Shown here one piece after another: positions 13,321-58,412 of a stretch of DNA of 64,000 bases. Every line of letters begins with the position of its first letter. Within the stretch, counting starts at the first letter, position 1. The notes below the pieces were generated by a model. It was not told the origin of the DNA and searched no databases. It saw nothing but the letters and a program-made list of their open reading frames with translations. Source of the stretch: Eucommia ulmoides (lineage: Eukaryota; Streptophyta; Magnoliopsida; Garryales; Eucommiaceae); the NCBI GenBank assembly GCA_016647705.1, contig CM028333.1, positions 8,382,616 to 8,446,615 on the forward strand. The letters run 5' to 3'. The translations under genes and the position numbers were made by a program.

Positions 13321-13698
13321 GTAGAATAAATTTATTAAGATGTTTCTATTTAAAAATAATATAAAAACACTTTTCCCTAAAATCTAAATCTTGAAATCAT
13401 TAATTGATTCCCAATTTCTCCTGATATTCAGAGAATCAAATTTTATTTGAATAAAATATTACTCAATTTAATATTAATCAAGCCTTATAGATATGGGTAT
13501 TTCTATTTCAGCTCCATTCCGACTATGAACTCATTATGCCTTAATATACAGGTTTTACAGTGGTTTTCACTCTCACCATTTGTCCTTGTGCCTCAATAGT
13601 TTGTCTGAACTTCGAAAACAAGTGATGAGACAATTTTCAAAAGTTCGAACAATGACTTATTTTCTCTTTTCAGTTTTTGAAATTTTTCTTTAGTTTAA
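13321..13698. other. Short spacer between RTE and Tourist-like element
   Basis: No gene or repeat recognised. TAA at 13696-13698 is the left target-site copy of the next element. Confidence 0.5.
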
Positions 13699-14732
13699 GG
13701 TTGTGTTTGGATAGGGTATTTGTAGAAGGGATTTCGTTTGGGGAAGGGATTTCAAAATACTCTTTTGACAAATCCCTTGTTTGGGTAAGAGAGGAAAGAA
13801 TTTGTCAAATCCTTTTAGGGGTGAATGAAGGGATTTGTAAATACTTTTGGGAGAGGTTGAATTTCTCAAATCCTTCCCTTCCCATTTTGCAAAAAGGACA
13901 CGGAGGTAATTTTCATAATTGTTATGAGATCCCCTCTTCAAGCCGCGATCTGTTCTTTCTTTTCTTTTTCCTTTTTTTTTTTTTTTTTCTTGTTTTTCCT
14001 TCTCATTCAACCAGCTCCCTCCATCGTCTGGTCTTCCTCCGTCGCCGTCGTCTGCTACTTCATCGTCATCATCTGGTTTCGATTGATTTCAAAAACGAAA
14101 TCGAAATCAATCGAAACCAAATCGAAAGGGTTTCGATTGATTTCGATTTCGTTTTTGAAATCGAAAACAAAATCGATTTCGATTTCAAAAACGAAATCAA
14201 TTTAGGGTTTCGATTTCTACTTAGATTTCGTTGCTTCGATTTAGGGTTTGTTCATCGATTTGGGTTTCGATTTGTTCATCGTGTTCATCGATTTGGGTTT
14301 CGATATCATTTCGATCATCATCTCGATTTCGTCTTCGCAATCGAAATATGTTCATCATGTTCATCGATTTGGGTTTGTTCATCAATGAGTTTCTGTTTTT
14401 GTTCCCAAATTCTGTTCGTCGACTAAATCAAACGACGATTGAATCGAAATCTCAATTTCGAAATTGAAATCATCTGAATTTGTTCTTCAATCGGTTGGTC
14501 TTCTTTTTTTTTCGTCTGATTTTCTCCATTTTTGTCTTCTTTTTCTTTTTCTTTTTTCTTTTTCAAAAGTGGGATAAAAGATAGATAAAAAAAACTATCC
14601 AAATACTTCAGTTCAAACAATCATCCAAACAACGGATTTGTAAAATGAAGGGATTTCAAAATTTAGGATTTTAAAATTCATTCATTTTACAAATCTCTTG
14701 AATTTATCAAATGCATTACCCCAAACGCAACC
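13699..14732 (-). mobile_element. Tourist-like (PIF/Harbinger) non-autonomous element, copy 1
   Basis: Starts GGTTGTGTTTGG and ends CCAAACGCAACC, so the termini are inverted repeats of the PIF/Harbinger type. TAA flanks both sides (13696-13698 and 14733-14735), the TWA target duplication expected of that superfamily. Length 1,034 bp. It is inverted relative to copies at 37185 and 43462: its right end (14640-14732) is the reverse complement of their left ends. The interior has a CT-rich tract, poly-T at about 13973-13989, and many short TCGATTTCGATTT-like repeats. Long open frames across it are repeat artefacts; no transposase is encoded. Confidence 0.8.
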
Positions 14733-14735
14733 TAA

Positions 14736-15025
14736 GATTCTTTCCTAATTGGCCCATTGCCGGAGATTTCTCAAATTTTCTAGGATGCATTTTCAGAGTA
14801 TTCTTTAATCTAGACCACTCTATCACATCTCGATTCTTTAAAACACAACAAAGTGCCAGGGTGGTGCGACATGCCAAAAAGGCACACTTCAAATTCAAAG
14901 ATATTGGAACTATGTATATTTTCAATATTATATATGTATTTGATAGCATAAAACGAAAGTATTATCAAACAAATTAAATATAATATTTACGTAGAGCCTT
15001 GATCAGAGCATCTAAGTCAAACATG
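14736..15025. other. Spacer between Tourist-like element and copia element
   Basis: Nothing recognised. Just under 300 bases of AT-rich sequence. Confidence 0.4.
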
Positions 15026-15030
15026 GTATA

Positions 15031-15939
15031 TGTTGAAACAAATGAATTTTAATTAAATTTTAAAATAAAAAGTGTCAAATGTACAATTTCCTCTAACCCT
15101 TTTATTCCACATTGGTTGGGAGAGGTGAAATTAATGAGGATATCTAGGGGTATGTGAGACATTTGGCGTGTGCCCCAAGGGGTACCCACATTTTGTGGAG
15201 GGGAGAGGAGTTACATCCCTACCGGTTTACCACGCGCGCGCGCCGCCACTGTCTGTTCGGTCGAGTCGAGTCGCGAGTGTGATGAGGTGGCACTTATTTA
15301 CTTTTTAGAAATAATATTTTTTTTAAAAACAGTTTAATTAAAAAAAAAAAATTAAAACGTTTGAATAATAATAAAAAAAAATAACGTTTTGAACCGTTTT
15401 AAATAAAAAAAACATTTAACATTTTAATAATTAAATTATTTAAACGTTTTTTTTTTTAATTTCTGTTTCAAAGATTTTATTTTTTTTCAAACGGTTTTTT
15501 TTTTTTTTTTTTCTCCTATAAATAAAGCTTTTTTCCTTAGTTTTAAGAACACAGAACAGTGTTCTGCTTCTATTTCTGCTCTCTTCTGTTTCTGTTCCGA
15601 ACTGTTCTGAAACAGTTTCGGTTTTCACTGTTTTGTTCTTCCGGAATTGTTCCGATCTGTTCCGGTACTGTTTCTTCAGTTCGATTTTGGTTTCCGAGCA
15701 GTTTGTTCGTTTTGCGAACAGTGTGTGGGGGTGTTTGGTTTTCGGGACTTCTACAGTGCAAAGAACGTCCTAGACAGAGAAGAATTCTGGGCTGTTTTAT
15801 CCTGGGGACGACGGGGCTGGTACATTGCTTGCACGTTCTTGGACAGAGCCGCGAAACGTCTTAAAGAGAGCGACCTAGTCCGCGACTCATCCCAAGAAAT
15901 TTTGGTAAACTCGTTCTTTATTTATTTTCTGCCACAACA
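15031..15939 (+). repeat. 5' LTR of the copia element
   Basis: 909 bp, TGTTG...CAACA. It holds a TATA box TATAAATA at 15517-15524, which puts transcription start near 15545-15555. Downstream is a stretch rich in repeated GTTCTG/CTGTTCCG words. At 15852-15865 is CGAAACGTCTTAAA, the exact reverse complement of sequence just after the LTR (see 15940-15955). Confidence 0.95.
15517..15524 (+). promoter_or_regulatory. TATA box in the copia 5' LTR
   Basis: TATAAATA in the context CTCCTATAAATAAAGC. The same context is kept in the 3' LTR at about 20633-20640. Confidence 0.6.
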
Positions 15940-15955
15940 TTTTTAAGACGTTTCG
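15940..15955 (+). promoter_or_regulatory. Primer-binding-site position; complementary to the element's own U5, not to initiator tRNA
   Basis: The first 16 bases after the 5' LTR read TTTTTAAGACGTTTCG. They do not resemble the usual plant site TGGTATCAGAGC. Bases 15942-15955 are the exact reverse complement of 15852-15865 in the LTR (14 bp). Adding 15940-15941 with 15866-15867 gives one G:U and one A:U pair, so the pairing reaches the LTR border exactly. The geometry fits self-priming as known for Tf1-type elements; that use is an inference. Confidence 0.5.
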
Positions 15956-15967
15956 ATATCTGCTAAG

Positions 15968-18900
15968 ATGTCTACTGATCACGATTTTAAACAAGTAACT
16001 GTTGATCTCAACAAACTCTTTCGTTTCGAAGGGTTTCATTTTAAAAGATGGAGACAGAAAATGTTATTTTTTCTTACTATCGAAAAAATAGCATATGTCT
16101 GTACAACCGAAAAACCTCAATTACCTCAAGTTCCTACAGACGCTCAGATCAAGAATTTAAGTCTAGGGAGGAAAATAATTTCCGTTGTAAGAATTTTATT
16201 CTTAATGGTATGTCTGATGATCTGTATGATTATTACTGCTCTAACAAAATTGCAAAGGAAGTTTGGGATGCTCTTTCGAAGAAATACGACACTGAGGAGG
16301 CTGGAAGTAAAAAATATGCTGTTAGTCGGTATCTGAAATACCAAATGACCGACGACAAATCAGTGAAAATTCAGTCTCATGAACTTCAAAAAATCGCTCA
16401 CGAAATAATTGCTGAAGGTATGTCCCTTGATGAACAATTTCAAGTTGCTGTTTTAATTGACAAATTACCCCTCTCTTGGAAAGATTTTAAGAATATTCTG
16501 AGGCATAAAACTAAAGAGTTTTCTTTAGAAAGTTTGATCACTCGTCTTCGGATTGAGGAGGAGGCCCGAAAACAAGATCAGAAAGATGAAGTGCTTGTTG
16601 TTTCTAACAACGCTCACAAAAAATCATCTTATGCTATTCTGAAACCTAAAGAAAAAAATATGAAAAATCAAAATCAGAATCGCAACCACAACAACCAGAA
16701 CAGAAATGTGCATCAAAATCATAATAGAAACAAACTCCCTTCAAGAAATAATTCTGAACAGTTTACTTGTTATAACTGTGGGAAGGCGGGCCATTTGGCT
16801 CGGAACTGTCGGCAAAGACGTCGTCCTGCTCCACAGGTGAATCTTACCAAGGACCAACTTATAACTATGATTTCTGAAATCAATATAGTTGGTGGATCTG
16901 AAAGGGTGGTGGGTAGACACTGGTGCTTCACGCCATGTCTGCTATGATCGTACCATATTCAAGTCTTATTCTGAAAGTGAAGACAAGAAAGTGTTGCTGG
17001 GTGATTCCCACTCCACTATTGTTGCCGGTTCTGGTGAAGTGCAATTAAAGTTTACCTCTGGAAAGACAGTCATCTTTAAAGATGTTTTGCATACTCCAGA
17101 GATGAGAAAGAATTTGGTTTCGGGCTATCTTCTAAACAAGGCGGGGTTCACTGAAACTATTGGGGCTGATTTGTACACCTTAACCAAAAATAATGTTTTT
17201 GTTGGAAAGGGATATGCAACTGATGGAATGTTCAAACTGAATGTTGAAATTAATAAAATTTCTTCTTCTGCTTACATGTTGTGTTCTTTTAATATTTGGC
17301 ATGCTAGACTTTGTTATGTTAACAAACGCATTATTAAAAACTTAAGTAAATTAGAACTAATTCCTAAATTGTCTTTGAATGATTTTGAAAAATGTGAATT
17401 TTGTAGTCAAGCTAAAATTACTAAAATCTCTCACAAATCAGTAATTAGAGAATCTGAATCTCTTGACTTGATACATTCTGATATTTGTGAATTTGATGGA
17501 ATCTTGACTAGGAATGGTAAACGCTATTTTATTACATTCATAGATGATTGTTCTGATTTTACTTATATTTATCTCATAAAAATAAAAGTGAAGCTTTTGA
17601 TATGTTTAAGAATTTTGTAATTGAGATTGAAAATCAATGCAATAAGAAAATTAAGAGATTACGTAGTGATAGAGGAACAGAATATGATTCCGATATTTTT
17701 ATTGATTTTTATAATTCTCGTGGGATTATTCATGAAAAAACTGCACCGTATTCTCCTGAAATGAATGGTAAGGCTGAAAGGAAAAATAGAATTTTTGCTG
17801 AATCAGTAGTTGCTATTTTACTTAACTTCGGTGCAGCTTCTCATTGGTGGGGTGAAATTTTATTAACGGTTTGCTATGTACTTAATAGAGTTCCCAAATC
17901 GAAAAGTAAAATTTCACCTTATGAAGTTTTCAAAAATAAGAAATCAAATTTGTCTCATTTTAAAACTTGGGGTTATTTGGCATATGTTCGAATTCCTGAC
18001 TTCAAAAGAAGAAAACTTACCAGTAGAGCTTATGAATGTGTTTTTATTGGTTATGCAGTAAATAGCAAAGCTTATAGATTTTATGATTTGAAAGATAGAG
18101 TTATCATTGAATCAAATGATGCTGATTTTTATGAATATAAATTTCCTTTCAAATTAAAGAATAGTGGGGGCTCGACTTCTAGTAATGAACCTATCATTAG
18201 AATTAATTAATCTGATAAGGAATTAGATATTGAACCTAGAAGGAGTAAACGACCTCGTACAGTTAAAGACTTTGGTTCGGATTTCTATGTATATACCTTA
18301 GAGGAGGATCCACTTACTCTCCAAGAGGCATTGTCCTCTATAGATGCCAATTTATGGCAAGAGGCTATAGATGATGAGTTAGACTCTCTCGAGTCAAATA
18401 GAACTTGGCATTTGGTAAATTTACCTCCTGGTTGTAAAACAATAGGATGTAAATGAATTCTTAAGAAGAAATTGAATCCCGATGGAACCATTGATAAATA
18501 TAAGGCTCGTCTTGTAGCCAAAGGGTTTAGACAAAGAGAGAATGTAGATTTCTTTGATACTTTTTCACCTGTCTCTAGAATTACATCTATTCGTATAAAT
18601 TTGAAAATGATGTTTGCATTATTATATGGATTTATGTGGATGACTTGCTAATCTTTGGTTCCAATATTCATGTTGTGAATAATGTAAAATTCATGCTATG
18701 TGCTAATTTTGATATGAAAGATCTTGGTGAAGCAAGTGTAATCCTTGGTATTAAAATAACTAGGTCTAAACATGGAATTTCTTTGGATCAATCTCATTAT
18801 ACAGAGAAGATTCTAAAGAAATACAATTATTTTGATTATAAACCAGCATGTACTCCTTATGACCCTAGTGTGAAGTTGTTCAAGAACACCGGTGATGGTG

Positions 18901-19583
18901 TTAGACAATCTGAGTATGCGAGCATCATAGATAGTCTTCGATATGCCACTGATTGCACTAGGCCCGACATAGCATATGCTGTGGGATTACTATGCAGGTT
19001 TACAAGCAGACCTAGTATTGAGCATTGACATGTTATTGATAGGATTATGAGATATCTAAAGAGAACTATGAACCTTAAATTATATTATCAGAAGTTTCCC
19101 GCTGTTCTGAAAGGATATAGCGATGCTGATTGGAACACCCTTTTAGATGACTCCAAGGCAACTAACGGTTATATATTTAGTATAGCTGGTGGAGCTGTTT
19201 CTTGGAAATCTAAGAAACAGACTATTTTGGCTCAATCTACTATGGAGTCTGAGATTATTGCACTAGCTTCGGCTAGCAAGGAAGCAGGGTGGTTAAGGAG
19301 CCTACTTTCTGATACCCCTTTATGGGAGAGACCGATTCCAGCTATCTTGATCCATTGTGATAGTACCGCGGCTATTGAAAAAATTCAGAACCGTTATTAT
19401 AACGGAAAAAAGCGACAAATACGTCGCAAACACAGCACTATTAGAGAGTATATCTCTACAGGGGGTGTGAAAGTGGATCATGTACGGTCTGATGATAACT
19501 TAGCCGATCCTTTGACGAAAGGATTAGCTCGAGAAAATGTTTACAAAACCTCGAAAGGAATGGGACTCGAGCCCATAGATTGA
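15968..19583 (+). pseudogene. Copia gag-pol, frameshifted and with an internal RT deletion
   Basis: Gag starts at 15968 (MSTDHDFKQVTVDLNKLF); its frame changes near 16150-16190 and again near 16905. The zinc knuckle CYNCGKAGHLARNC is at 16768-16809. Protease follows with WWVDTGASRHVC (from about 16907). The integrase zinc region has HARLCYVN where HxRLGHxN is usual, so the second zinc His is lost, then CEFC. The core has D (HSDICEF), D (RSDRGTEYD) and E (NGKAERKN), with a frame break near 17590. Stops occur at 18208-18210, 18454-18456 (TGG to TGA type) and 19026-19028. In reverse transcriptase, sequence from SRITSIRI jumps to the YVDDLLIFGS motif at about 18628; roughly 90-100 codons with catalytic motif A are missing. 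RNase H (YSDADW) to the end is open (19047-19583). No functional product is possible. Confidence 0.92.
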
Positions 19584-20127
19584 CAAGTCACTTGTGAGGG
19601 AAACCCAACCTATAGACTGGAGATCCCAAGAAATAGGTTCAAAGGGTAATAACAACTCATGAAGTGATATGAGAAAAATCATGCTATAAATTTGAGTTCT
19701 ATTTCATAAATGTGCTGTTTGAAGCATGATATCTTGAAGCGATAGAAGGTTGAGTTTTTATTAACTCTTAATGAGATCTATACTCTATTTGGAGTGGAGT
19801 ACCTAGCTACAAGAGTACTCTTGATAGATTCACCTATGTGAATGTGGAAGTGGGGCCGCTTCCTATGGAATTTTGGGCAAAATTCTCTAGAGCATTCACT
19901 ATACTGGGATATACATGCATGGCTGGAAAGCACGGGCTTTTGGACTACACCCTGATAGGGTTGTGTGTGTGATGTTGTTAGAGATAGAGTTCAAAATTAC
20001 GAGTTACTCTAGTATAATCTAAAGCATCTTCACTATGTAAAGGTTCAAGTCGATACACACCTTTTCTTATGCACAATCTTATATTGAATTATACTGCTCG
20101 ATGAAAAAAAATTGTTTTTAAAAATTC

Positions 20128-20138
20128 AAGTGGAGGAT
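20128..20138 (+). promoter_or_regulatory. Polypurine tract of the copia element
   Basis: AAGTGGAGGAT ends exactly where the 3' LTR begins; this is the typical place and composition of the plus-strand primer in copia elements. Confidence 0.75.
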
Positions 20139-21055
20139 TGTTGAAACAAATGAATTTTAATTAAATTTTTAGAATAGAAAGTGTCAAATGTGCAATTTCC
20201 TCTAACCATTTTATTCCACATTGGTTGGGAGAGGTGAAATTAATGAGGATATCTAGGGGTATGTAAGACACTTGGGGTGTGCCCTAAGGGGTACCCACAT
20301 TTTGTGGAGGGGAGAGGAGTTACATCCCTACCGGTTTACCACACGCGCGCCACCACCGCCGTCCGTTCGGCCGAGTCGAGTCGAGGCGCGCGTGTGATGA
20401 GGTGACACTTATTTACTTTTTAGATTTTTTTTTTTTTTAAAACAGTTTAATTAAAAAAAAAAATTAAAACGTTTGAATAATAAAAAAAAAAAATAACGTT
20501 TTGAACCGTTTTAATTTATTAACGTTTTAAATAAAAAAACGTTTAACGTTTTAATAATTAAATTATTTAAACATTTTTTTTATTTTCGGTTTCAAAGATT
20601 TATTTTTTTTTCAAACGTTTTTTTTTTTCTCCTATAAATAAAGCTTTTTTCCTCAGTTTTAAGAACAAAGAACAGTGTTCTGCTTCTGTTTCTGCTCTCT
20701 TCTGTTTCTGTTCCGAACTGTTCTGAAATAGTTTCGGTTTTGACTGTTTTGTTCTTCCGGAACTGTTCCGATCTGTTCCGGTACTATTTCTTCAGTTCAA
20801 TTTTGATTTCCGAGCAATTTGTTCGTTTTGCGAACAGTGTGTGGGGGTGTTTGATTTTTGGGACTTCTACAGTGCAAAGAACGTCCTAGACAGAGAAGAA
20901 TTCTGGGCTGTTTTATCCTGGGGACGACGGGGCTGATACACTGCTTGCACGTTCTTGGGTAGAGCCGCGAAATGTCTTAAAGAGATCGACCTAGTCCGCG
21001 ACTCATCCCAAGAAATTTTGGTAAACTCGTTCTTTATTTATTTTCTGTCACAACA
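20139..21055 (+). repeat. 3' LTR of the copia element
   Basis: 917 bp, colinear with 15031-15939. It differs by single changes, homopolymer lengths and a small extra block near 20513-20524. The self-complementary motif is CGAAATGTCTTAAA here (one C to T change), which would still pair by G:U in RNA. Confidence 0.95.
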
Positions 21056-21479
21056 GTATATAAGCCAAAATTCACTACATATTAAAATGGAAATCTATCT
21101 ACTGAAGAATTTATGTATGATAATATTTCCTTCTATCTATTGTCATTTTCCATGTCATACGAAGTTGATGATTTATATGCATGCATTTTCTTACACCGCC
21201 ACTTCTCCACCTGAAAGTGAAGATAGAATAGGAAAAATACAAAAGAGGGTCAACTAAAAAACTGAGTGAACAATTCTCATACGTTGTCATGGGTTTTGAA
21301 AATGATTTTTTTTTTGATCAAAAGTTTAGAACACAAAGTTGTTGTAGCCTTATCAAAAGATACCATGATGTAAATTTTCCCTACTTTTTGTGTGTGAATC
21401 TAGTATTCACGTTTTCGCATTTAATAAGATAAAAATTGATTAAGAAAATTAATTTGATTTAAAATTTTAAACTACCTAA

Positions 21480-36525: not shown

Positions 36526-37361
36526 CTATGTACATTGATGAGAAACATCACGAAGAAGAAGAAGAATATTTTAAGATTTTTTTTTATTCTTTTTCGGTTT
36601 CACGGTAATCACCTCCCGCGCACTTCGAAATCACTCTCCGGGGGTGATTTTAAGGATGATCTTAAGGGCGCATTTCGCCACAACAATATAATACATTTAA
36701 GATTAAATTTAAGATTTAATTTCCTGAGTGTTCCCAAGAAAGTCGAACCTGGGTTGACAAAGATAAAAGGGTCAACTGGACTAACACCTCTTGGATAAAT
36801 TCTATATTTTTTATTTTATTTTATGATAAGGTGCGTCCGAATCAGCTTACACGTACTTCTACTAATCACCTCATCAAACGATCTTAAAAGTGCACTCCCC
36901 ACATTGGCATGATGTTATCAAAATTAAACTCAAAATTTAATTCTCTGAGTGCTCGTAAAAAAAGTTGAACCATGATTGATAATGAAATAGAGTACTTTCT
37001 TTTGCCAACTAGACTAACAGTAGTTCTTGAGTTTAAAAATTAATGTAAGAATCAGAAGATTTTCTTACCTACAATGAGCTTCCATTTGTTTGATTTTCTT
37101 TTGTGCCTGCAATAAGAGGATGATCACAGTGAACACGGTAAAAATTTCATGTGAATAGTTTGAACTTTGATGGTCGACATTAAGGTTTCGTTTGGATAAG
37201 GGATTTGATAAATCCAAAAATTTTGTGAAATAAAGTGATTTCAAAATCCTAAATTTTGAAATTCCTTCATTTCACAAATCTGTTGTTTGGATAATCGTTC
37301 GAAGTGAAGTATTTGGAATATATATTTTTTTTTTGTTCTATTTTTTATCACTTCTGAAAAG

Positions 37362-37393
<32 letters not shown>

Positions 37394-40300
37394 AGAGGAA
37401 GTTCAATCCAAGAACAAATTTGGCCATCTCCATCGCCAAGAACAAATCTGGCTGTCGCCGGTGATTTCTGGACATCACCATCGCAAAAACCAAACAAGAG
37501 CACACTCGCAATCGTTGTTGTCGTCAGATCAAAATTGTCGCAATCGAAATCGTTGGGCGATTGATGACGACGAGCGGACGATTGACGACGACGGACGATT
37601 GACGACGAAGAGCGATGATCGATGAAGACCGAAGCAGACGACAAAGCAGCAGAAGCAGAAGAAGAGGCAGAAGCAGACGACGAGCGAAGCTGAAGACCGA
37701 AGCAGACGACGAAGAACGAAAAACGAAATCGAACCCTGAATAGGGTCCGATTTCAAACCAGCAGCAGAAGCAGAAGAAGAGGTAGAAGAACAAAGAAGAG
37801 TAGAAGAACGAAGAAGAGACGAAGAACAGGCAAAAGAACGGTGATGAAAGGATTTCACAAATTACACATCTCCTAAATTCATTTCTAAATCCATCCATTC
37901 ACCCAAAAAGAATTTCACAAATCTTTTCTCCTAACCAAATAAGGGATTTGCCAAAAATGGATATCAAAATCCCCTAACCAATTGAAATCTCTCCTACAAA
38001 TCCTTCATCCAAACACAACCTAATAGAACATGTATTGTTAATTCTATGTGAACTCTATGGTCGCGTTTGGTTAGTGCTTGTGCTTTTCTATTTTAGTTCT
38101 AATAAATTTGAATTGTGTTAAGATAATTGAGAAGTGGGAGAAAAATCATGAATTGATATTTTGAAAAGTGATACTAATATAATATAACGATGTACACATA
38201 TTTATAGGGGAAGTGAGGATTAGGGTTTTGCCCTAATGGGCCACGTGGGCCAAACTCATATAATACATTAACATCTCCTCTCAAACTCAAGGCGGTAAGT
38301 TAGAGGTGAACTTGAATTTAGAAATCAAAGAGTGAAAGCGTCTAGGTGAATGAGCCTTAGTGAAAATGTTTGCTGTCTAATCGGCTGAACTGACAGATTG
38401 TAGACGAATCGTATTCTGAAGAATGTGATGACGGATGAAGTGTCAATTAATCTCGATGTGTTTTGTACGCTCGTGGAATACATTATTGTGAGCGATCTGA
38501 ATAGCACTCATGTTGTCACAGTGTAGGGTAGTGGCAGCAGGAGAAGAGATGCCCATATCAGCGAGGAGCCATCGAAGCTAGATAAGTTCTTGAGTTGCAT
38601 CAGCTATGACACGATATTCAGCTTCAGTACTGGAGCAAGAAACTACAGTCTGTTTCTTACTACGCCAGGAAATGAGAGAATTGCCCAAAAAGAAACAGTA
38701 ACCAGTGGTTGAACGTCTGTCAGTGGGGTCTCCGGCCCAATCGACATCAAAATAAGCTTGTAAGAAGGGAGTAGACTGAGCTGAGAAATGAAGCCCATGA
38801 AATAATGTACCCTTGAACCGAAGAATGTGAAGAACAACCGAGTAATGGGTAGTCCGAAGAGCGGATAAGAACTAGCTGACCTGAAAAATAACATAGGCAA
38901 TGGCAGGGCGAGTGACAGTGAGGTATACAAGACTTCCAACCAGTTGGCGATATAGAGTGACATCCTGAAGAAGTGAACCATCAAGTGGCGTAAGTCTGAC
39001 ATTCGGCTCAAGAGGAGTAGTGACAATGGTTGAGTCAGTGATCCTAGCATTGGAAAGGAGATCCGAGGCATATTTGGCCTGAGAGAGAAAATATCCTTCA
39101 AAACCCGATGAGACTTCAAGACTAAAAAAATAGGTAAGTACACCAAGGTCTTTCATCTAAAATTGGCCACTTAGAAACTTTTTGAGTTTAGAAATGTCGC
39201 ATATATCATCTCTAGTGATAACCATATCGTCCACATATAGTAAAAGAAAGATAATATCATTGGTAGTATGGTGAATAAACAGAGCCGAATCATGAGCACT
39301 AGGTCTGAACCCAAACTGATGAATACTAGTACTGAATTTTGCAAACCAAGCACGTGGAGCTTGTTTTAAACCATATAGAGCACGGCGAAGGCGACAAACT
39401 TTATTTCGAGGAGCAACCAAGCTAGGAGGAGTATACATATATACTTTCTCAAGAAGATCGCCATTGAGAAATACATTTTTGACATCCATTTGAAAAAGAG
39501 TCCATTTTCAAATGGCAGCAACAGCAAAAAGTGTACGGACAGATGTTAGCCTCCCCACTAGAGCAAATGTCTCTTCATAGTCAATACTATATTCCTAAGT
39601 AAATCCCTTAGCAACAAATCGAGCTTTATATCGTTCAACAGAACCATCAGAAATCATCTTGATCTTAAACACCCATTTTCACCCAATAAGAATTTTTCTA
39701 GGGGGTAGATCTACAATATCCCAGGTATGAGTTTTGGCGAGGGTTTGACGTTCTTCGTCCATTGCTTTCTACCAAAGAGGATTAGTACTAGCCTCCTTAT
39801 TAAATTGAGGCTCATGCAGATGAAGTATAGTGGAAAAACAATGAAAATCAGAAAGGTAATGTGGAGGATGAGTTACCCTGGTAGAGCGACGAGGGTGATC
39901 TGGGGCGTGGGTGTCAATGGAAGGCGGTACAAGATTATCGACTACAGGAAAAATCTCAGGCATAGTTGCTAGAGTTGAAAGGGTGAGATCAGTTAGTAGT
40001 TCTAGAATGGGTTCAACTGGTGGTTTTGGGATGGACTTAGCATAAGATGCAGGGCTAGGCTCAACTGGTAGTGCTGGAGTGGACTCAACAGTAACTGGAA
40101 CTTTATTATCTGGAAATAATTCAATGGATAGATCAGTAAAGAATCTGGAGTTGGTGAGGGTTGACATGTCAAATGACCGTAAGGAAGAAAACATTTGATG
40201 TTCCCAAAAGATGACATGTCGCGAGATACGAATGGTTTTAGAAGTGGGATCCCAGCATCGATACCCTTTATGTTCGATGCCATATCTAAGAAAACAACAC

Positions 40301-43300
40301 AGACGAGCCCTTGATTCTAATTTGCTGTGTTCATATGGTTTGAGAAGAACAGAACAGGCGCAACCAAAGACTCTGAGTTCAGAGTAATCAGGAGTTTTAC
40401 CGAAAAGGCGTTCAAATGGAGACTGATTTTGGATTGTAGCGGAAGGGACACGGTTTATTGTGTAAATGGCTGTGAAGGCAGCCTCACCCAAAAAACGCTC
40501 AGGACATGATGAATAAATTAGGAGAGCACGAACTGTGTCAAGAATATGTCTATGTTTGCGTTCAGCTTGTCCATTTTGTTGTAATGTACTAGGACACGAG
40601 CGATGGGGGAGTGTGCCATTTTTGTGAAGTAGGTTAAGAAAAACACGATCCTTGTAGTCCATTGCATTATCTGAGCGAAAAACTTTGATATTTCTAGAAA
40701 ATTGAGTTTAAACCATAGAAGAAAACTTAGAATATATTTGGAATAGTTTGGATCGATGTTTCATAAGAAACAACCATGTATATCGAGAGTAGTCGTCCAT
40801 AAAGATAACAAATTAACGAAGACCACCAATCGAGGTATGAGGAGAAGGCCCTCAAATATCATAATGAATTAGATCAAAGGGTGCAAGAGAAATAGACTGA
40901 TTCTCTTTGAAAGGTAGGGCTGGTTGTTTGGCAAGTTGGCAATGGATATATTTGAAGGACTCATGTTGAACTGAACCTAACTAACCACTAGAGAGAAGCG
41001 ATTTGAGTCGGTTAGAAGAAGTGTGGCCTAACCGAGCATGCCAAAGTTGGGATGGTGAGAGAGACACTGGTGGTTGTGGATATAAGGATGAGGAAGAGAA
41101 TACTGGCAGTAGTGGTGAGGTTGCATAGGTTGATGAAGGGATATTTGGTTGTGGTGATGATAGAGTTGGAGATGGAAGGTGTAAACTGGTAAATTCAAAT
41201 AGGCGTCAACCTTACGACCAGTCCCAAGAGTTTTTCCTGTCCGAGGATCCTACATACGATAACCACTATTAGAAAATATGACTTCAAATCTCAATTCACA
41301 AAGTTGCCCAACAGACAAGAGATTTAAGGTGAGGTTTGGAATCAAATACGTGATAGGAATAGAAAGATGGGAAGTAAAAACTTGATCGGTATGTGTAACA
41401 GGCATTTGAGAACTATCAGCAGTATGAATATTAGGGATATTCATCGCGGATAGTTTGGTGGAAAAAAATATTGGGATCAGATGTCATGTAATTATAACAG
41501 GCAAAATCAAAGAATCAAGAGAAATTACCTACAGTAAGTGAGAGAGTAAGGGAAAAATTTGTACCAGTACCAATTTTGGAGAAGATATGAAGGAGAAATG
41601 AGGCCAAATCTGCAATAGCCATGGTGACAGTAGAGAAGGTAGGGTCTAAATCCTCTTTGGCATTGATAATGAGCGAAGAACCCACAGACATCGTTGTTAA
41701 ACCTGTGGAAGCTGTTGTCATGGATGGATTCAGAATGCCAAAATTGTCTATGAACCGGTATTAAATCTCCAAGAACCGGGCGAGAAACGGGTGAACCGGC
41801 GTAGAAACCACGCGAATATGAAGAAAAATATATACTGTGAGCCTCAAATCACAAAACGGAGCTCGGAAACAGAATCAGAACGTCGAAAAATCCCAGGAAC
41901 CGGTCCCAGTTTATAGAAAACTAGTGAACAAAGGCCTGAACCGGGACAAAGAATGTACTGATGACGTGGCGTTAACTGGGTGCTGAGGTGGCGCTGACGT
42001 GGAAATTAGTAAACACTTATGTGGCACGGGTCAACGATGATGTGGCACTGACTAGGTGCTGAGGTGGTGCTGAATAGGTTGTTGATAGGCTAGGCTGCAA
42101 GTTGATCTGACACGCCACGGATGGGCGGTGCGTGCGGCGGTTTCCGGAGATGGACTTTACAGTTTTGGAATCGTCTCGTCGAGACGGTTTCGTTGGTATA
42201 TTGTGGAGTGAATTTGGAGCCCTAGTTGAGGCGGTAGAGCCAAATATCCGAGATGATGGGGCTAGTGGTTACTGCAAGCTGTTGGTGGCGCGTGTGAGCG
42301 CATTAATACTCCGATGACGGTGATTTTGGTGGCGTTGTGTTCATCTCTGCAAGACGAAGTCGGTGGTGTGTGAGTTGTTTATATCGGAGTGGTGATGAAA
42401 CCTATAGCAGTGACGAAATCCGCGGGAGAAAAGAGCTGGCAGTGGCTACAGAAGCTTTAGGGTTTTGAATTTTTTTTAGATAGAATACGTCCAGAAAAGA
42501 TTTGCTCTTGATACAATATTAAGATAATTGAGAAGTGGAAGAAGAATTATGAATTGATATTAAGAAAAATGATACTAATATAATACAACGATGTACACAT
42601 ATTTAAAGGAGAAGTGGGAGATAGGGTTTTGCCCTAATGACCCACGTGGACCAAACCCATATAATTCTTACTTTTATTCTCATTTAAAAAAAAATTTAAA
42701 ATATTTTGAGAATAATGCTCGTCATCAAATATTTCTATTTGGGAACAACTCAAAACAAAATTTCATCCACACAAAAGTAGAAACACTAAACGCCACCCAA
42801 ATTACTCTTACCAAATAAATAAAAATTAAATAATATATTCAGTATCATGAAAAACTACTTTCAGAATTAAAATAATATATTCAGTATTATGAAAAACTAC
42901 TTTCAGAATTAAAATAATCTTTCTCCTTTTCACAAAAAAAGAATAAATTCAGCAAGTTATTTTTTAAAAAAAATTAAAAACTATTTTACAATTGCAAATC
43001 TATCATATATTTTGTCATCAACAGCATTAAAAAGACAATTAATGTCAAAAACAATTAATGTCACATTTTGGGGAAATCCCATTTACACCTCTGGAACTAT
43101 TGACCATAATCACGAGAATCTCCTTAACTATTAAAATTAGACAAAAAATTTCAAAGATCCCAAGACATAAAACCACCACTTGTAGGGGTCCCATATTGAC
43201 CATAATCACGAGAATCTCCTTAACTATTAAAATTAGACAAAAAATTTCAAAGATCCCAAGACATAAAACCACCACTTGTAGGGGTCCCATTTTAATGAAG

Positions 43301-46300
43301 GGTGATGGAACCCCTATAAGTGGTGGGTTTATATTTTAGGACTTTTGAAGGATTTTTTTTTTAAATTACATGGGACACCCTTGAACTCTTTGGTCAATGA
43401 ACATTCAAACCCTCAGTTCATTTTGTATGCCGAAAATACCCTTTAACAGTCAATTTTGTAAGGTTGCGTTTGGGTAAGGGATTTGTGAAATGAAGGGATT
43501 TCAAAATCCTGAATTTTGAAATCCCTTCATTTCACAAATCCGTTGTTTGGATAATTGTTCGAAGTGAAGTATTTGGTATATATATATATATATATTTGTT
43601 CTATTTTTTATCACTTCGAAAAAAATAAAATAAAATCAATCCAAGAACAAATCTGGCCATCTCCATCGCCAAGAACAAATCTAGCCGTCGCCGGTGATTT
43701 TTGGCCATCGCCATCGCAAAAACCAAACAAGAGTACACTCGCAATCGTCGTCGTCGTCAAAATCATTGCAATCGTCGTCGTCGTCGTCAGATTGAAATCG
43801 TCGCAATCACCATCAAAATCGTCGGACGATTGACGACGACAGACGGACGATTGACGACGATCGATGAAGACCGAAGCAGACGACGAAGCAACAAAAGCAG
43901 AAGAAGAGGCAGAAGCAGAAGGTCGAAGCAGACGACGAAGAACAAAAAACGAAAAACGAAATCGAACCTAAAACGAATTCGAACCCTGAATAGGATTCGA
44001 TTTCAAAATCGAAATCGATTTCAAACCAGCAGCAGAAGCAGAAGAAGATTCATAAGCAGACGACGAGCGAAGCAGACGACGAAGAACGAAAAACGAAATC
44101 GAACCTAAAACGAATTCAAACCCTGAATAGGATTCGATTTCAAAATCGATTTCGAAAAACGAAATCGATTTCAAACCAGCAGCAGAATAAGGGACAGAAG
44201 AACGAAGAAGAGCAAAAAAAAGAAGAATGGTGATGGAAGGATTTCACAAATTACACTTCTCCCAAATTCATTTCTAAATCCCTCCATTCACCCAAAAAAG
44301 AATTTTACAAATCCTTTCTTCTATTACCCAAACAAGGGATTTGCCAAAAATGGATTTCAAAATCCCTTAACCAATTGAAATCCCTCCTACAAATCCTTCA
44401 TCCAAACACAACCTAATTGTTGACCGTATTGACCATTTTTCATGACCAAATTGCCCTTATTTACCCTTTGTCTAATGACTAAATTGCCTTAGTTATTCCC
44501 TCCAATTGAAAACATATGAAATGACCTAATTGCCCTTCTCCTTCTTCATCTCTTTAATTGAACGATCGTTCCCATCGTTCCCAGCTTCCCCTCCAATTCA
44601 CGGCGTGCATCGCCGTATACGCCACCAGCTCCACCGCCTCTGCCTCATTCATCTCCGGCAACCCCACTCTCTTATCCAAAATCCTCCCCAAATCTCCGGC
44701 CAATATCTCCGGAACTGCAAAATCCACCACACTCACCGGCACACCACCCTCCCCACTCTTGAATATCGCCCTCTTCGCCGTCAAAAGCTCAAGCAAAACA
44801 ACCCCCAACAATGGAGGAGGAGAAAGAGAAAAAGATGAATCGTTAGAAAAACCAGGTCCCCAACAGATGACGGAGAAATTATCGGTAGTCAATCCACATG
44901 TAAAATCCAAACCGGCGACGATCGATTCGAACTGAATTTTGCCGGGGACATTCGTCGGAAACCTCCCGGCGCCACCCCAACACACAACTCTACCATTCAA
45001 TCTCCGAATCGCACAGGTGTGATTTGCCCCGAGGGCCAATCCGGAATATTCGTAAGCGGAAATCGAAGGAAAATCGAGCTGACCGCCGTCGTTACTTCCT
45101 CTACAAACCAGAAAACCGGTGGTGTTCAACCCACAGGCGTGGCTATCGCTGACGAAGATAGTGGACATGGTGGTGTTGGCGAACTGGGTTTGAATCACGC
45201 CGGCCAAATTGCTGCCACCCCAGCACATGATTATGCTGTTGTTGATTAGGATCCCGCAGGAGAAGCCTAACCCAGATGAAATTGATCGGAATCGCTCCGA
45301 TTGAGATGAAATCGAATCACCTCTCCAGCACCGGACGTCGCCGGTGCCGTTCGTCAGGGAACAAATCTGATTGTCTCCGATCGTCAGATCTTGCAAAAGA
45401 ATCGATTCGTTGAAATAGAGTCTTTTCGGGGTGAAGTCAGAGTTCCAGCATACGAGGCTGAAGCCGGCGGACCTTATTCCGCAGAAAACGTTGCGGCTGC
45501 CGGCGATTGTGATGGTGATGGAGCACGGAGCAGAGAGAGCGTTGGAGATGGTGGGGATGAACAGAGGTGTAGAAGAGAAGACAACGAAGAAAGAGAAAAA
45601 GAGGAGAAAAAAGAAAGAGAAAAAGAAAAAAATAAAGGAAAGGGCTAAGGGCAATTTGGACATTTACTATCTGAGATTATTTTATTATTTTTTTGTTCTG
45701 AATTAGTAAGGGCAAAATGGTCAATTCATTAAAAATTGCTCCGGCAGGGGGTCACCGTGATAATTTTGCAAGTTTTAGGGGATGCATGTGAAATTTCACT
45801 ATAATTGAAGGGATGTAAATGGTATTTTCCCGTCACATTTTTGTCTGGATTATGGGAAATATTATTGGAAATATTATTAAAATTGTAGATATACTCACGT
45901 GGCAGAATCACAGACGTCCTTACAGAGGCAGGTGACTGTTTTTGTGCTGAGATCGTATCCACACCGTCCATTCTCTTGTTGACAAGTCCCACAGCCGTCA
46001 ACGGTGCCCCATTGCAGCGGAAATCCATCGCTCAGCAAATCGGGCAACAGTTCCATCTGCCGATCACCGGATCCACCGTTGACTCCGGCTGTAGTGAAAT
46101 TTAAAAAGCCGTATCTAGCGAGGCTTGCCCTGAACACCGGTAGCGTTAACAGCTGGCAACCGATCGGCGTCACCACCGGCTGACTCTCTATCGGCGGCCC
46201 TCGTTGATTCTGCTTCCAGCTTTCGTTATGCCATAGATAAAGCCACGGGCCTTCATTGCACCTGACATTCCCAACAACCGGCGGCGCGAGACTTCGATCA

Positions 46301-55289: not shown

Positions 55290-58200
55290 GTAGGGTATGT
55301 CCGAGCTAGGAGTATGGTAGCTTGTTAGCTTAGACATATCCCCTGCTTTGGCCTTCTTTTTCAAGGGTTGAAGGTTGAACCTTTTACTTTTGACAATGTC
55401 CGAGCTGAGAGTACGACAACTTGTCAGCTCGGACATTTCCCCTGTCTTGGCCTTCTTTTACAAGGGTTTGAAGTTTTAGCTTTTCCTTTTGACAATGTCC
55501 GAGCTGAGAGTACGGTAGCTCGTCAACTTGGACATTTCCTTTGCCTAGGTCTTATTTTTTAAGGTTTGAAGGTTGATCCTTCCCTTGTTGACAATGTCTA
55601 AGCTGAGAGTACGACATCTCATCAGCTCAAACATTTTCTCTGCCTTGGTCTTGTTTTCGAGGGTTGAAGGTTGAGCCTTTCCCTGTTGACAATGTCTGAG
55701 CTGAGAGTACGACAGCTCATCAGCTCGGACATTTCCTCTGTCTTGGTCTTCTTTTTTGAGGGTTGAAGGTTGAGCCTTCTCCTATTGACAATGTCTGAGC
55801 TGAAAGTACGACAGCTCGTCAGCTCGTACATTTCCTCTGTCTTGGTCTTCTTTTTCAAGGGTAAAAGGTTTGAGCCTCCCCCTTTTTTGATAATATCTGA
55901 GCTGGGAGTATGTAGGCTCGTTAGCTCGGACATTTCTTCTGCCTTGAACTTCTTTTAAGGGTGAAAAGTTTTATCCCCCCTTGTTTTTGATAAGGTCTGA
56001 GCTGGGAGTACGTAGGCTCTTCAGCTTGGCCATTTCTTCTGACTTGAACTTCTTGGAAGGGTAGAAAATTTGAGCCTCCCCCCTTTTGATAATGTCTGAG
56101 CTGAGAGTAGTAGGCTCGTCAGCTCGAACATTTATTCTGCCTTTAACTTTTTTGAACGGTGAAAAGTTTGAGCCTCCTCTTTTTTTGATAATGTCCGAGC
56201 TGGGAGTACGTAGGCTCGTCAGCTCGGACATTTCCTCTGCCTTGAACTTTTTTTAAGGGTGAAAAGTTTTATCCCCTCTTGTTTTTGATAATGTCTAAGC
56301 TGGGAGTACGTAGACTCGTCAGCTTGGCTATTTCTTCTTACTTGAACTTCTTGGAAGGGTAGAAAGTTTGAGCCTCCCCCATTTTGATAATGTTCGAGCT
56401 GAGAGTAGTAGGCTCGTCAGCTCGGACATTTATTCTGCCTTGAACTTCTTTGAAGGGTGAAAAGTTTGAGCTTCCCCCCTTTTTGATAATGTTCGAGCTG
56501 GGAGTACATAGGTTCGTTAGCTCGGACATTTCTTCTGCCTTGAACTTCTTGGAAGGGTGGAAAATTTGAGCCTCCCCCCTTTTTGATAATGTCCGAGCTG
56601 GGAGTACGTAGGCTCGTCAGCTCGGATATTTCTTCTGACTTGAACTTCTTGGAAGGGTAGAAAGTTTGAGCCTTCCCATTTTTTTGATAATGTCCGAGCT
56701 AGGAGTACGTAGGCTCGTCAGCTCGGACATTTCTTCTGCCTTGAACTTCTTGGAAGGGTGAAAAGTTTAAACCTCCCCCTTTTTGATAATGTCCGAGCTG
56801 GGAGTACGTAGGCCCGTCAGCTCGGACATTTCTTTTGCCTTGAACTTCTTGGAAGAGTGGAAAGTTTGAGCCTTCTCCCTTTTTTATAATGTCCGAGCTG
56901 GGAGTATGTAGGCTCGTTAACTCGGACATTTCTTCTGCCTTGAACTTCTTGGAATGGTGGAAAGTTTGAGCTTTCCCCCTTTTTGAGCTCGGACATTTCT
57001 TTTGCCTTAAACTTCTTGGAAAGGTGGAAAGTTTGAGCCTCCCCCATTTTTGATAATGTCCGAGCTGGGAGTACGTAGGCTCGTCAGCTCAGACATTTCT
57101 TCTAATTTGAACTTCTTGGAAGGGTGGAAAGTTTGAGCCTTCCCTTTTTTTGATAATGTCTGAGCAGGGAGTACGTAGGCTCGTCAGCTCGGACATTTTT
57201 TCTACCTTGAACTTCTTGGAAGGGTGAAAAGTTTGAGCCTCTCCCCTTTTCAATAATGTCCGAGCTGGGAGTACGTAGGCTTGTCAGCTCGGACATTTCT
57301 TCTGACTTGAACTTCTTGGAATGGTGGAAAGTTTGAGTCTCCCCCTCTTTTGATAATGTTCGAGATGGGAGTACATAGGCTCGTCAGCTCGGACATTTCT
57401 TTTGCCTTGAACTTCTTAGAAGGGTGGAAAATTTGAGCCTCCCCCCTTTTTGATAATGTCCGAGCTGGGAGTACGTAGGCTCGTCAGCTCAGACATTTCT
57501 TCTGACTTGAACTTCTTGGAAGGGTAGAAAGTTTGAGCCTCCCCATTTTTTTGATAATGTCCGAGCTAGGAGTACGTAGGCTCGTCAGCTCGGACATTTA
57601 TTCTGCCTTGAACTTCTTGGAAGGGTGAAAAGTTTAAGCCTCTCCCCTTTTTGATAATGTCCGAGCTGGGAGTATATAGGCCTGTCAGCTCAGACATTTC
57701 TTCTGCCTTGAACTTCTTGGAAGGGTGGAAAGTTTGAGCCTCCTCCCTTTTTGATAATGTCCGAGCTGGGAGTATGTAGGCTCGTTAGCTCGAACATTTC
57801 TTCTGCTTTGAACTTCTTAGAATGGTGGAAAGTTTGAGCTTTCCCCCTTTTTGGGCTCGGACATTTCTTTTGCCTTAAACTTCTTGGAAGGGTGAAAAGT
57901 TTGAGCCTTCCCCATTTTTGATAATGTCCGAGCTGGGAGTACATAGGCTCGTTAGCTCGAATATTTATTCTAATTTGAACTTCTTGGAAGGGTGGAAAGT
58001 TTGAGCCTTCCCCTTTTTTGATAATGTTCGAGCTGGGAGTACGTAGGCTCGTCAGCTCAGACATTGTTTCTACCTTAAACTTCTTAGAAGGATGGAAAGT
58101 TTGAGCCTCCCCTCTTTTCGATAATGTCCGAGCTGGGAGTACATAGGCTCATCAGCTCGGACATTTCTTCTAACTTGAACTTCTTGGAATGGTGGAAAGT

Positions 58201-58412
58201 TTAAGTTTCCCCCTTTTTTGATAATGTTCGAGCTGGGAGTATGTAGGCTCGTCAGCTCGGATATTTCTTCTGCCTTGAACTTCTTTTAAGGGTAGAAAGT
58301 TTGAGTCTCCCCTCATTTTGATAATGTCCGAGCTGAGAGTACGTAGGCTCTTCAACTCGGACATTTATTCTGATTTGAACTTCTTGAAATAGTGGAAAGT
58401 TTGAGCCCCTTT
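55290..58412. repeat. Satellite-like array, about 100-bp monomers (about 31), hairpin in each
   Basis: Monomer starts (TGTCCGAGCTG) recur at a spacing of about 99-101 bases, for example at about 56590, 56691, 56790 and 56890. A consensus monomer has TGTCCGAGCTG, a spacer GGAGTACGTAGGCTCGT, then CAGCTCGGACA: 11-bp exact inverted arms. It then has TTTCTTCTGCCTTGAACTTC and a pyrimidine-rich CCTCCCCC segment. The 55.3-55.9 kb part is an older variant with GAGAGTACGACAGCTCG. Two shortened monomers at about 56975 and 57843 mark an 868-bp internal duplication. Many minus-strand frames beginning MSELTSL are products of the repeat. Confidence 0.93.

Follow-up and report, generated by a model that had tools for sequence, protein, structure and literature searches.

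A Ty1/copia element of Eucommia ulmoides with a primer-binding site complementary to its own LTR: a candidate for self-priming

The window analysed here, a stretch of 64,000 nt of Eucommia ulmoides DNA, contains a Ty1/copia LTR retrotransposon that spans positions 15031-21055 (Table 1) and whose two LTRs have a TGTTG start and a CAACA end in common. The coding region of Ty1/copia elements is arranged in the order GAG, protease, integrase, reverse transcriptase (RT) and RNase H, and the same order is found here, with gag, Pol_BBD, GAG-pre-integrase, the SH3-like integrase domain and RVT_2 detected by Pfam and RNase H by alignment. The RNase H piece at 19029-19580 has no Pfam match and is recognised from its alignment to the copia-like record L001 alone. 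This copy of the element is old and defective. The gag piece (16045-16944) and the ATG at 15968 lie in different frames, so that the frame is broken, and the middle of RT is missing, since the RVT_2 match is confined to positions 24-69 and 156-242 of the 244 positions in the profile. The LTR pair differs by 33 transitions and 17 transversions across 895 aligned positions (K2P 0.058), which at the substitution rates commonly used for plants, 1.3e-8 and 7e-9, corresponds to about 2 to 4 million years. From its sequence, the copy looks immobile. A search of Rfam over 15000-21100 returned a sole match with E up to 1, to snoR26, which at 23.7 bits falls below the gathering threshold of 47 and was taken as chance.

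Table 1. Coordinates of the element and its features in the window
Feature	Position	Strand	Basis or remark
Target-site duplication GTATA	15026-15030 (5' copy) and 21056-21060 (3' copy)	.	Flank both LTRs
5' LTR, TGTTG...CAACA, 909 bp	15031-15939	+	LTR alignment and blastn pair with 20139-21055
TATA-box-like motif TATAAATA	15517-15524	+	Motif in sequence
Proposed self-primer segment CGAAACGTCTTAAA	15852-15865	+	In 5' LTR
AAGAAA, then T-rich stretch	15894-15899	+	Possible poly(A) near-upstream element, from sequence
TT spacer between 5' LTR end and 14-nt complement	15940-15941	+	
Primer-binding site (PBS) TTTAAGACGTTTCG	15942-15955	+	Exact reverse complement of 15852-15865
First ATG 3' of PBS	15968-15970	+	In frame of first reading frame 15947-16336
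gag piece: Retrotran_gag_2 and CCHC zinc knuckle	16045-16944	+	Pfam
Protease-region beta-barrel (Pol_BBD) and GAG-pre-integrase	16889-17617	+	Pfam
Integrase piece with C-terminal SH3-like domain	17557-18207	+	Pfam; resembles other copia-like integrase regions
RT pieces (RVT_2)	18457-19025	+	Pfam
RNase H piece	19029-19580	+	36% identity to homologous region of copia-like record L001
Purine-rich tract AAGTGGAGGA	20128-20137	+	Just before 3' LTR
3' LTR, 917 bp	20139-21055	+	LTR alignment, blastn pair, target-site duplication
3' LTR copy of primer segment	20968-20981	+	One C to T change at CpG, G:U pairing kept

The window also holds a second, heavily decayed copia on the minus strand (38118-42665, with LTR pieces at 42665-42519 and 38264-38118), which shares 29-38% identity with the first in the integrase, RT and RNase H pieces and carries a PBS-like sequence, TTGTATCAAGAGCAA, that resembles a degraded tRNA-Met site. 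Three related stretches of 0.8-1 kb (37183-38024, 43476-44417 and, inverted, 13698-14733) end like GGTTGTGTTTGGATGAAGGATTTG and look like non-autonomous DNA transposons; two of them form direct repeats flanking the second copia. A tandem array at 55297-58407 comprises roughly 30 copies of ~100-bp units with 80-87% matches, and several longer periods are present in it too.

Outside the window, relatives of the element were sought among viral contigs, scanned both with the RT piece and with an alignment, and among phages, searched with the RT piece, and none was found in either; plasmids yielded no DNA match to the LTR plus PBS. Copia-like fragments were recovered from bacterial genome contigs at three loci out of 92 pattern matches (37-39% in RNase H), and two plasmid records gave copia-like matches at 36-40%. 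None of the five copia-like loci, L001 to L005, is a close relative of the element. L001 (NZ_CP115454.1) and L002 (NZ_CP115302.1) are entered as "plasmids" of rhizosphere Kitasatospora and Streptomyces isolates and are probably plant contamination labelled as bacterial plasmids, while L003 (NZ_QPKJ02000033.1), L004 (BMWJ01000027.1) and L005 (QHXS01000117.1) are contigs of bacterial assemblies that encode pieces of a copia polyprotein and are likely to be eukaryotic contamination.

The PBS of the first element is complementary to a segment of its own 5' LTR. It had been claimed in the first-pass annotation that 15942-15955 is the exact reverse complement of 15852-15865, and this is confirmed, the plus strand of the LTR segment and the minus strand of the PBS being identical at 14/14 positions; the complement begins 2 nt past the 5' LTR end (15939). 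Two further observations of that annotation hold as well, namely that the 3' end of the primer segment faces the LTR border and that the 3' LTR copy (20968-20981) differs by a single change, a C to T transition that still pairs as G:U. A perfect 5' segment beside a 3' copy altered at a CpG is what post-insertional decay would be expected to leave: since a new insertion starts out with two identical LTRs, the intact 5' copy is consistent with full pairing at that time and with subsequent decay of the 3' copy. Among the duplex partners scanned over 15551-21055, with starts adjoining the PBS itself omitted, the LTR segment gives the most stable duplex with the PBS (-21.3 kcal/mol), as compared with -19.5 kcal/mol for the 3' LTR copy and -12.2 kcal/mol for the best unrelated site.

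The pairing had also been extended in the first-pass annotation to 16 pairs, by one G:U and one A:U, so as to reach the LTR border precisely. This longer version does form when the duplex is folded in isolation, the -21.3 kcal/mol given above being its energy, but in the minimum-energy fold of the 201-nt leader (15800-16000), which holds all 14 pairs, bases 15866-15867 pair inside the loop and not with 15940-15941. Because these last two bases pair elsewhere in the leader fold, 14 pairs and a 2-nt spacer constitute the safer reading. Pairing of 16 bp up to the exact border was likewise rejected as a requirement, since in L002 CAACA and TGG seem to be set apart by 2 nt, in a comparison of border spacing that comprised L002 only, whose LTR end is not mapped, and left out L004 and the second window copia. 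Taken over its full length, the 201-nt leader shows no unusual stability (z -1.45, with 17/200 shuffles folding as low). Three similar short motifs lie around the primer segment in the LTR, at 15764, 15832 and 15855 (AACGTCCTAGACAGAG, CACGTTCTTGGACAGAG and AACGTCTTAAAGAGAG), as if the primer region had grown by local duplication.

Priming by a whole tRNA depends on a TGG, which complements the terminal CCA, close to the LTR border; in tRNA-Met-primed copia elements it lies within 0-5 nt of the 5' LTR and continues as the complement of the tRNA 3' end. No TGG occurs in the 30 nt that follow the 5' LTR here, which rules out a tRNA 3' end as the primer. To this extent the earlier description of the PBS as not tRNA-like stands; for internal tRNA pieces the comparison covered two plant tRNAs, initiator Met and Ile, in which the longest matches to the PBS are 8 nt and 4 nt, respectively. 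ARAGORN found no tRNA in the window. The standard tRNA-Met PBS, TGGTATCAGAGC, is present in two of the five copia-like records (L002 and L004, probably contaminating plant sequence); the motif was not found in L001, L003 and L005, where no 5' LTR junction was recognised. At the three other junctions compared, complementarity to the neighbouring LTR or upstream DNA runs to at most 7 nt in L002, 6 nt in L004 and 4 nt in the second window copia, the LTR being taken as the 620 nt upstream in the first two and as 150 nt in the last.

Priming of copia elements by internal tRNA pieces has been described. Bianca is primed by a half tRNA-Ile, and Osser, Bryco and part of Gymco-II by a half tRNA-Met (PMC6317226), while the PBS of the fungal FunCo1 corresponds to an internal part of tRNA-Lys (PMC5445492). 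In elements of the Bianca and Osser type, the tRNA fragment to which the PBS is complementary ends at the LTR border. The element described here resembles all of these in having no PBS for a tRNA 3' end, but differs from them in that its PBS matches at most 8 nt in the Met and Ile tRNAs compared, against 14 nt in the LTR. Alternatively, the complementarity might be a structural stem like the U5-inverted-repeat stems of retroviral leaders, serving packaging or dimerisation or controlling translation close to the gag ATG, with a tRNA fragment as the true primer at the same site. In the predicted fold the 14-bp stem does lie immediately 5' of the ATG at 15968. The use of internal tRNA pieces by some copia elements (PMC6317226, PMC5445492) and the 8-nt match of the PBS to the initiator Met sequence point in the same direction. 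That match, however, starts 10 nt from the LTR border, where the 3' end of a primer would be misplaced; the LTR match is longer and begins after only 2 nt, and the site fits no tRNA 3' end. We consider a structural stem combined with a tRNA-fragment primer unlikely.

Pairing of a PBS with the element's own LTR has precedents in plants. In the survey of plant LTR elements by Neumann et al. (2019; PMC6317226), 12% are predicted to be self-primed, and among the copia elements the prediction falls on the TAR lineage (which includes Houba, Osr-1 and Fourf), an earlier proposal of self-priming for Houba and Osr-1 being cited there. The rule applied in that survey asks for complementarity to the 5' LTR over 10 bp or more, with a start 0-5 bp past the LTR end (PMC6317226). 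With 14 bp at offset 2 the element falls within this rule, and for that reason it is best regarded as a further case of a kind that has already been predicted computationally and published, the idea of self-priming itself not being new. On sequence grounds, the element probably belongs to the TAR lineage or near it. It is, as in TAR, a plant copia in which the PBS right after the 5' LTR is complementary to that LTR and not to a tRNA; the copy here is, however, defective, and the likeness is drawn from the PBS criterion. For plant copia elements, self-priming is given as a prediction in the survey (PMC6317226), and among open-licence papers no bench test of it was seen. The suggestion in the first-pass annotation of a self-primed mechanism agrees with the best-supported reading of the sequence, but such a mechanism is no surprise for a plant copia, as the prediction for TAR has been published (PMC6317226).

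It is likely, in our judgement, that the PBS of this old, defective plant Ty1/copia element, which probably falls in or near the TAR lineage, pairs with the element's own LTR transcript and not with a tRNA. The claim of self-priming is built on one element, the strong statistical match detailed below, the missing tRNA site and the published lineage-wide pattern. It could be argued instead that self-priming happened once, by accident, in a family that is normally primed by tRNA, and that LTR sequence was thereby copied into the position of the PBS and has decayed since. The copy is a single, defective one, and in LTR reverse transcription copying of the primer into plus-strand DNA would give an exact match in one step, both of which would suit such an accident. 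As a whole lineage with self-complementary PBSs has already been published (PMC6317226), a private accident is unnecessary, and we hold it to be rather improbable.

The expectation for a 14-nt match over offsets 0-5, calculated from the LTR composition, is 1.8e-5. When the LTR was shuffled with its dinucleotides preserved, 1/3,000 shuffles reached a match of at least 14 nt and 2/3,000 one of at least 13, and none of the 4,139 interior positions tested likewise exceeded 11. These figures uphold the earlier statement that a coincidence at this place is very unlikely. Long runs of A/T do occur in the LTR, and elsewhere in the window an LTR match of at least 14 nt is reached at 146 of 62,038 positions; these are A/T-rich runs, since of the 45,266 14-mers outside the LTRs with at least 4 G/C, the PBS alone has an antisense match in the LTR. 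A chance match favoured by A/T-rich sequence, in spite of these runs and of the one shuffle that reached 14 nt, is disfavoured by the small expectation and by the unique match among the G/C-filtered 14-mers, and we regard it as extremely improbable.

Under self-priming, the segment 15852-15865 would anneal to the PBS at 15942-15955 in the packaged RNA, and the RNase H of the element would cut after 15865, freeing a 3'-OH for minus-strand synthesis; the primer would end at 15867 instead if the G:U and A:U pairs form. In Tf1, the RNase H domain reportedly cuts the corresponding duplex. Reverse transcription would then copy 76 nt, from 15941 back to 15866, as the first DNA. The TATA-like motif at 15517 would place the transcript start ~30 nt 3' of it, near 15550, and hence the primer segment ~300 nt inside the predicted transcript, so that the internal position proposed in the first-pass annotation stands with the start as a prediction from this motif. 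A cut in cis would remove everything 5' of 15866, most of the leader, from the template. The first DNA could then be transferred to the 3' end of the RNA only with an R that runs on past that position, so that strand transfer would need such an R or another source of primer. The AAGAAA motif at 15894-15899, a possible poly(A) near-upstream element, and the T-rich stretch behind it would allow a poly(A) site, and with it the R/U5 border, near 15915-15930, so that R would run past 15866. If R stops earlier, the primer would have to come from a second packaged RNA, whereas an R that contains the segment would make the 3' R a further possible source. The attached primer, once copied into plus-strand DNA, would rewrite the PBS in each cycle, which would explain the exact match. 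We offer it as a tentative proposal, and one more open to doubt than the pairing itself, that the copia self-primes from deep inside R and not from the 5' end, with an R extending past the cut or with the 3' R or a second RNA as donor, and that the rewriting of the PBS in every cycle locks the two sequences together.

In the yeast gypsy element Tf1 self-priming has been demonstrated, and it is implicated in the relatives of Tf1 among the Tf1/sushi chromoviruses (Tf1, Tf2, Tj1 and Tosmo1-3); the primers of Tf1 and Tj1 are the 5' end of the RNA (PMC10085805, PMC4600332). The element shares with this group a PBS complementary to its own RNA and a primer that would be released by cleavage within the 5' portion of the transcript. 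The Tf1/sushi elements, as described there, belong however to the Ty3/gypsy chromoviruses; their primer is the extreme 5' end of the RNA, and two additional duplexes join PBS-adjacent sequence to the LTR. The element here is a copia with the segment ~300 nt inside its predicted transcript and with no significant extra duplex between the flanks of the paired segments. In Tf1/sushi elements the integrase follows RT and a chromodomain is present, whereas here the integrase piece precedes RT and no chromodomain is found among the Pfam matches; the copia domain order excludes membership of Tf1/sushi. As regards a three-duplex "pretzel" leader, the primer-PBS duplex is present, and an extension of the stem through the flanks (15833-15847/15959-15971), considered as a Tf1-like feature, was rejected as not significant, being equalled by 221/5,000 shuffled flanks and by 278/4,120 interior 22-mers.

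The fungal GalEa elements are also copia elements without a tRNA PBS and have a structured element, the Conserved Hairpin Site, in its place, but the authors who described them found no LTR complement to that site (PMC5445492), whereas one is present here. For one plant Tcn1 element, neither a tRNA PBS nor self-priming was found (PMC2864245), a reminder that predictions differ. The term "self-priming" in PMC2206039 and PMC4659654 refers to a PCR method only.

The finding adds one example and opens no new kind. Being a clean 14-nt case with an internal primer position, it makes the prediction for plant copia elements concrete: the expected cut is narrowed to 15865 or 15867, the first DNA piece is predicted to be ~76 nt long, and the strand-transfer problem would have to be solved by the position of the R/U5 border or by a second RNA. 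If priming from deep inside R is true, it would differ from that of Tf1 both in the source of the primer and in the first strand transfer.
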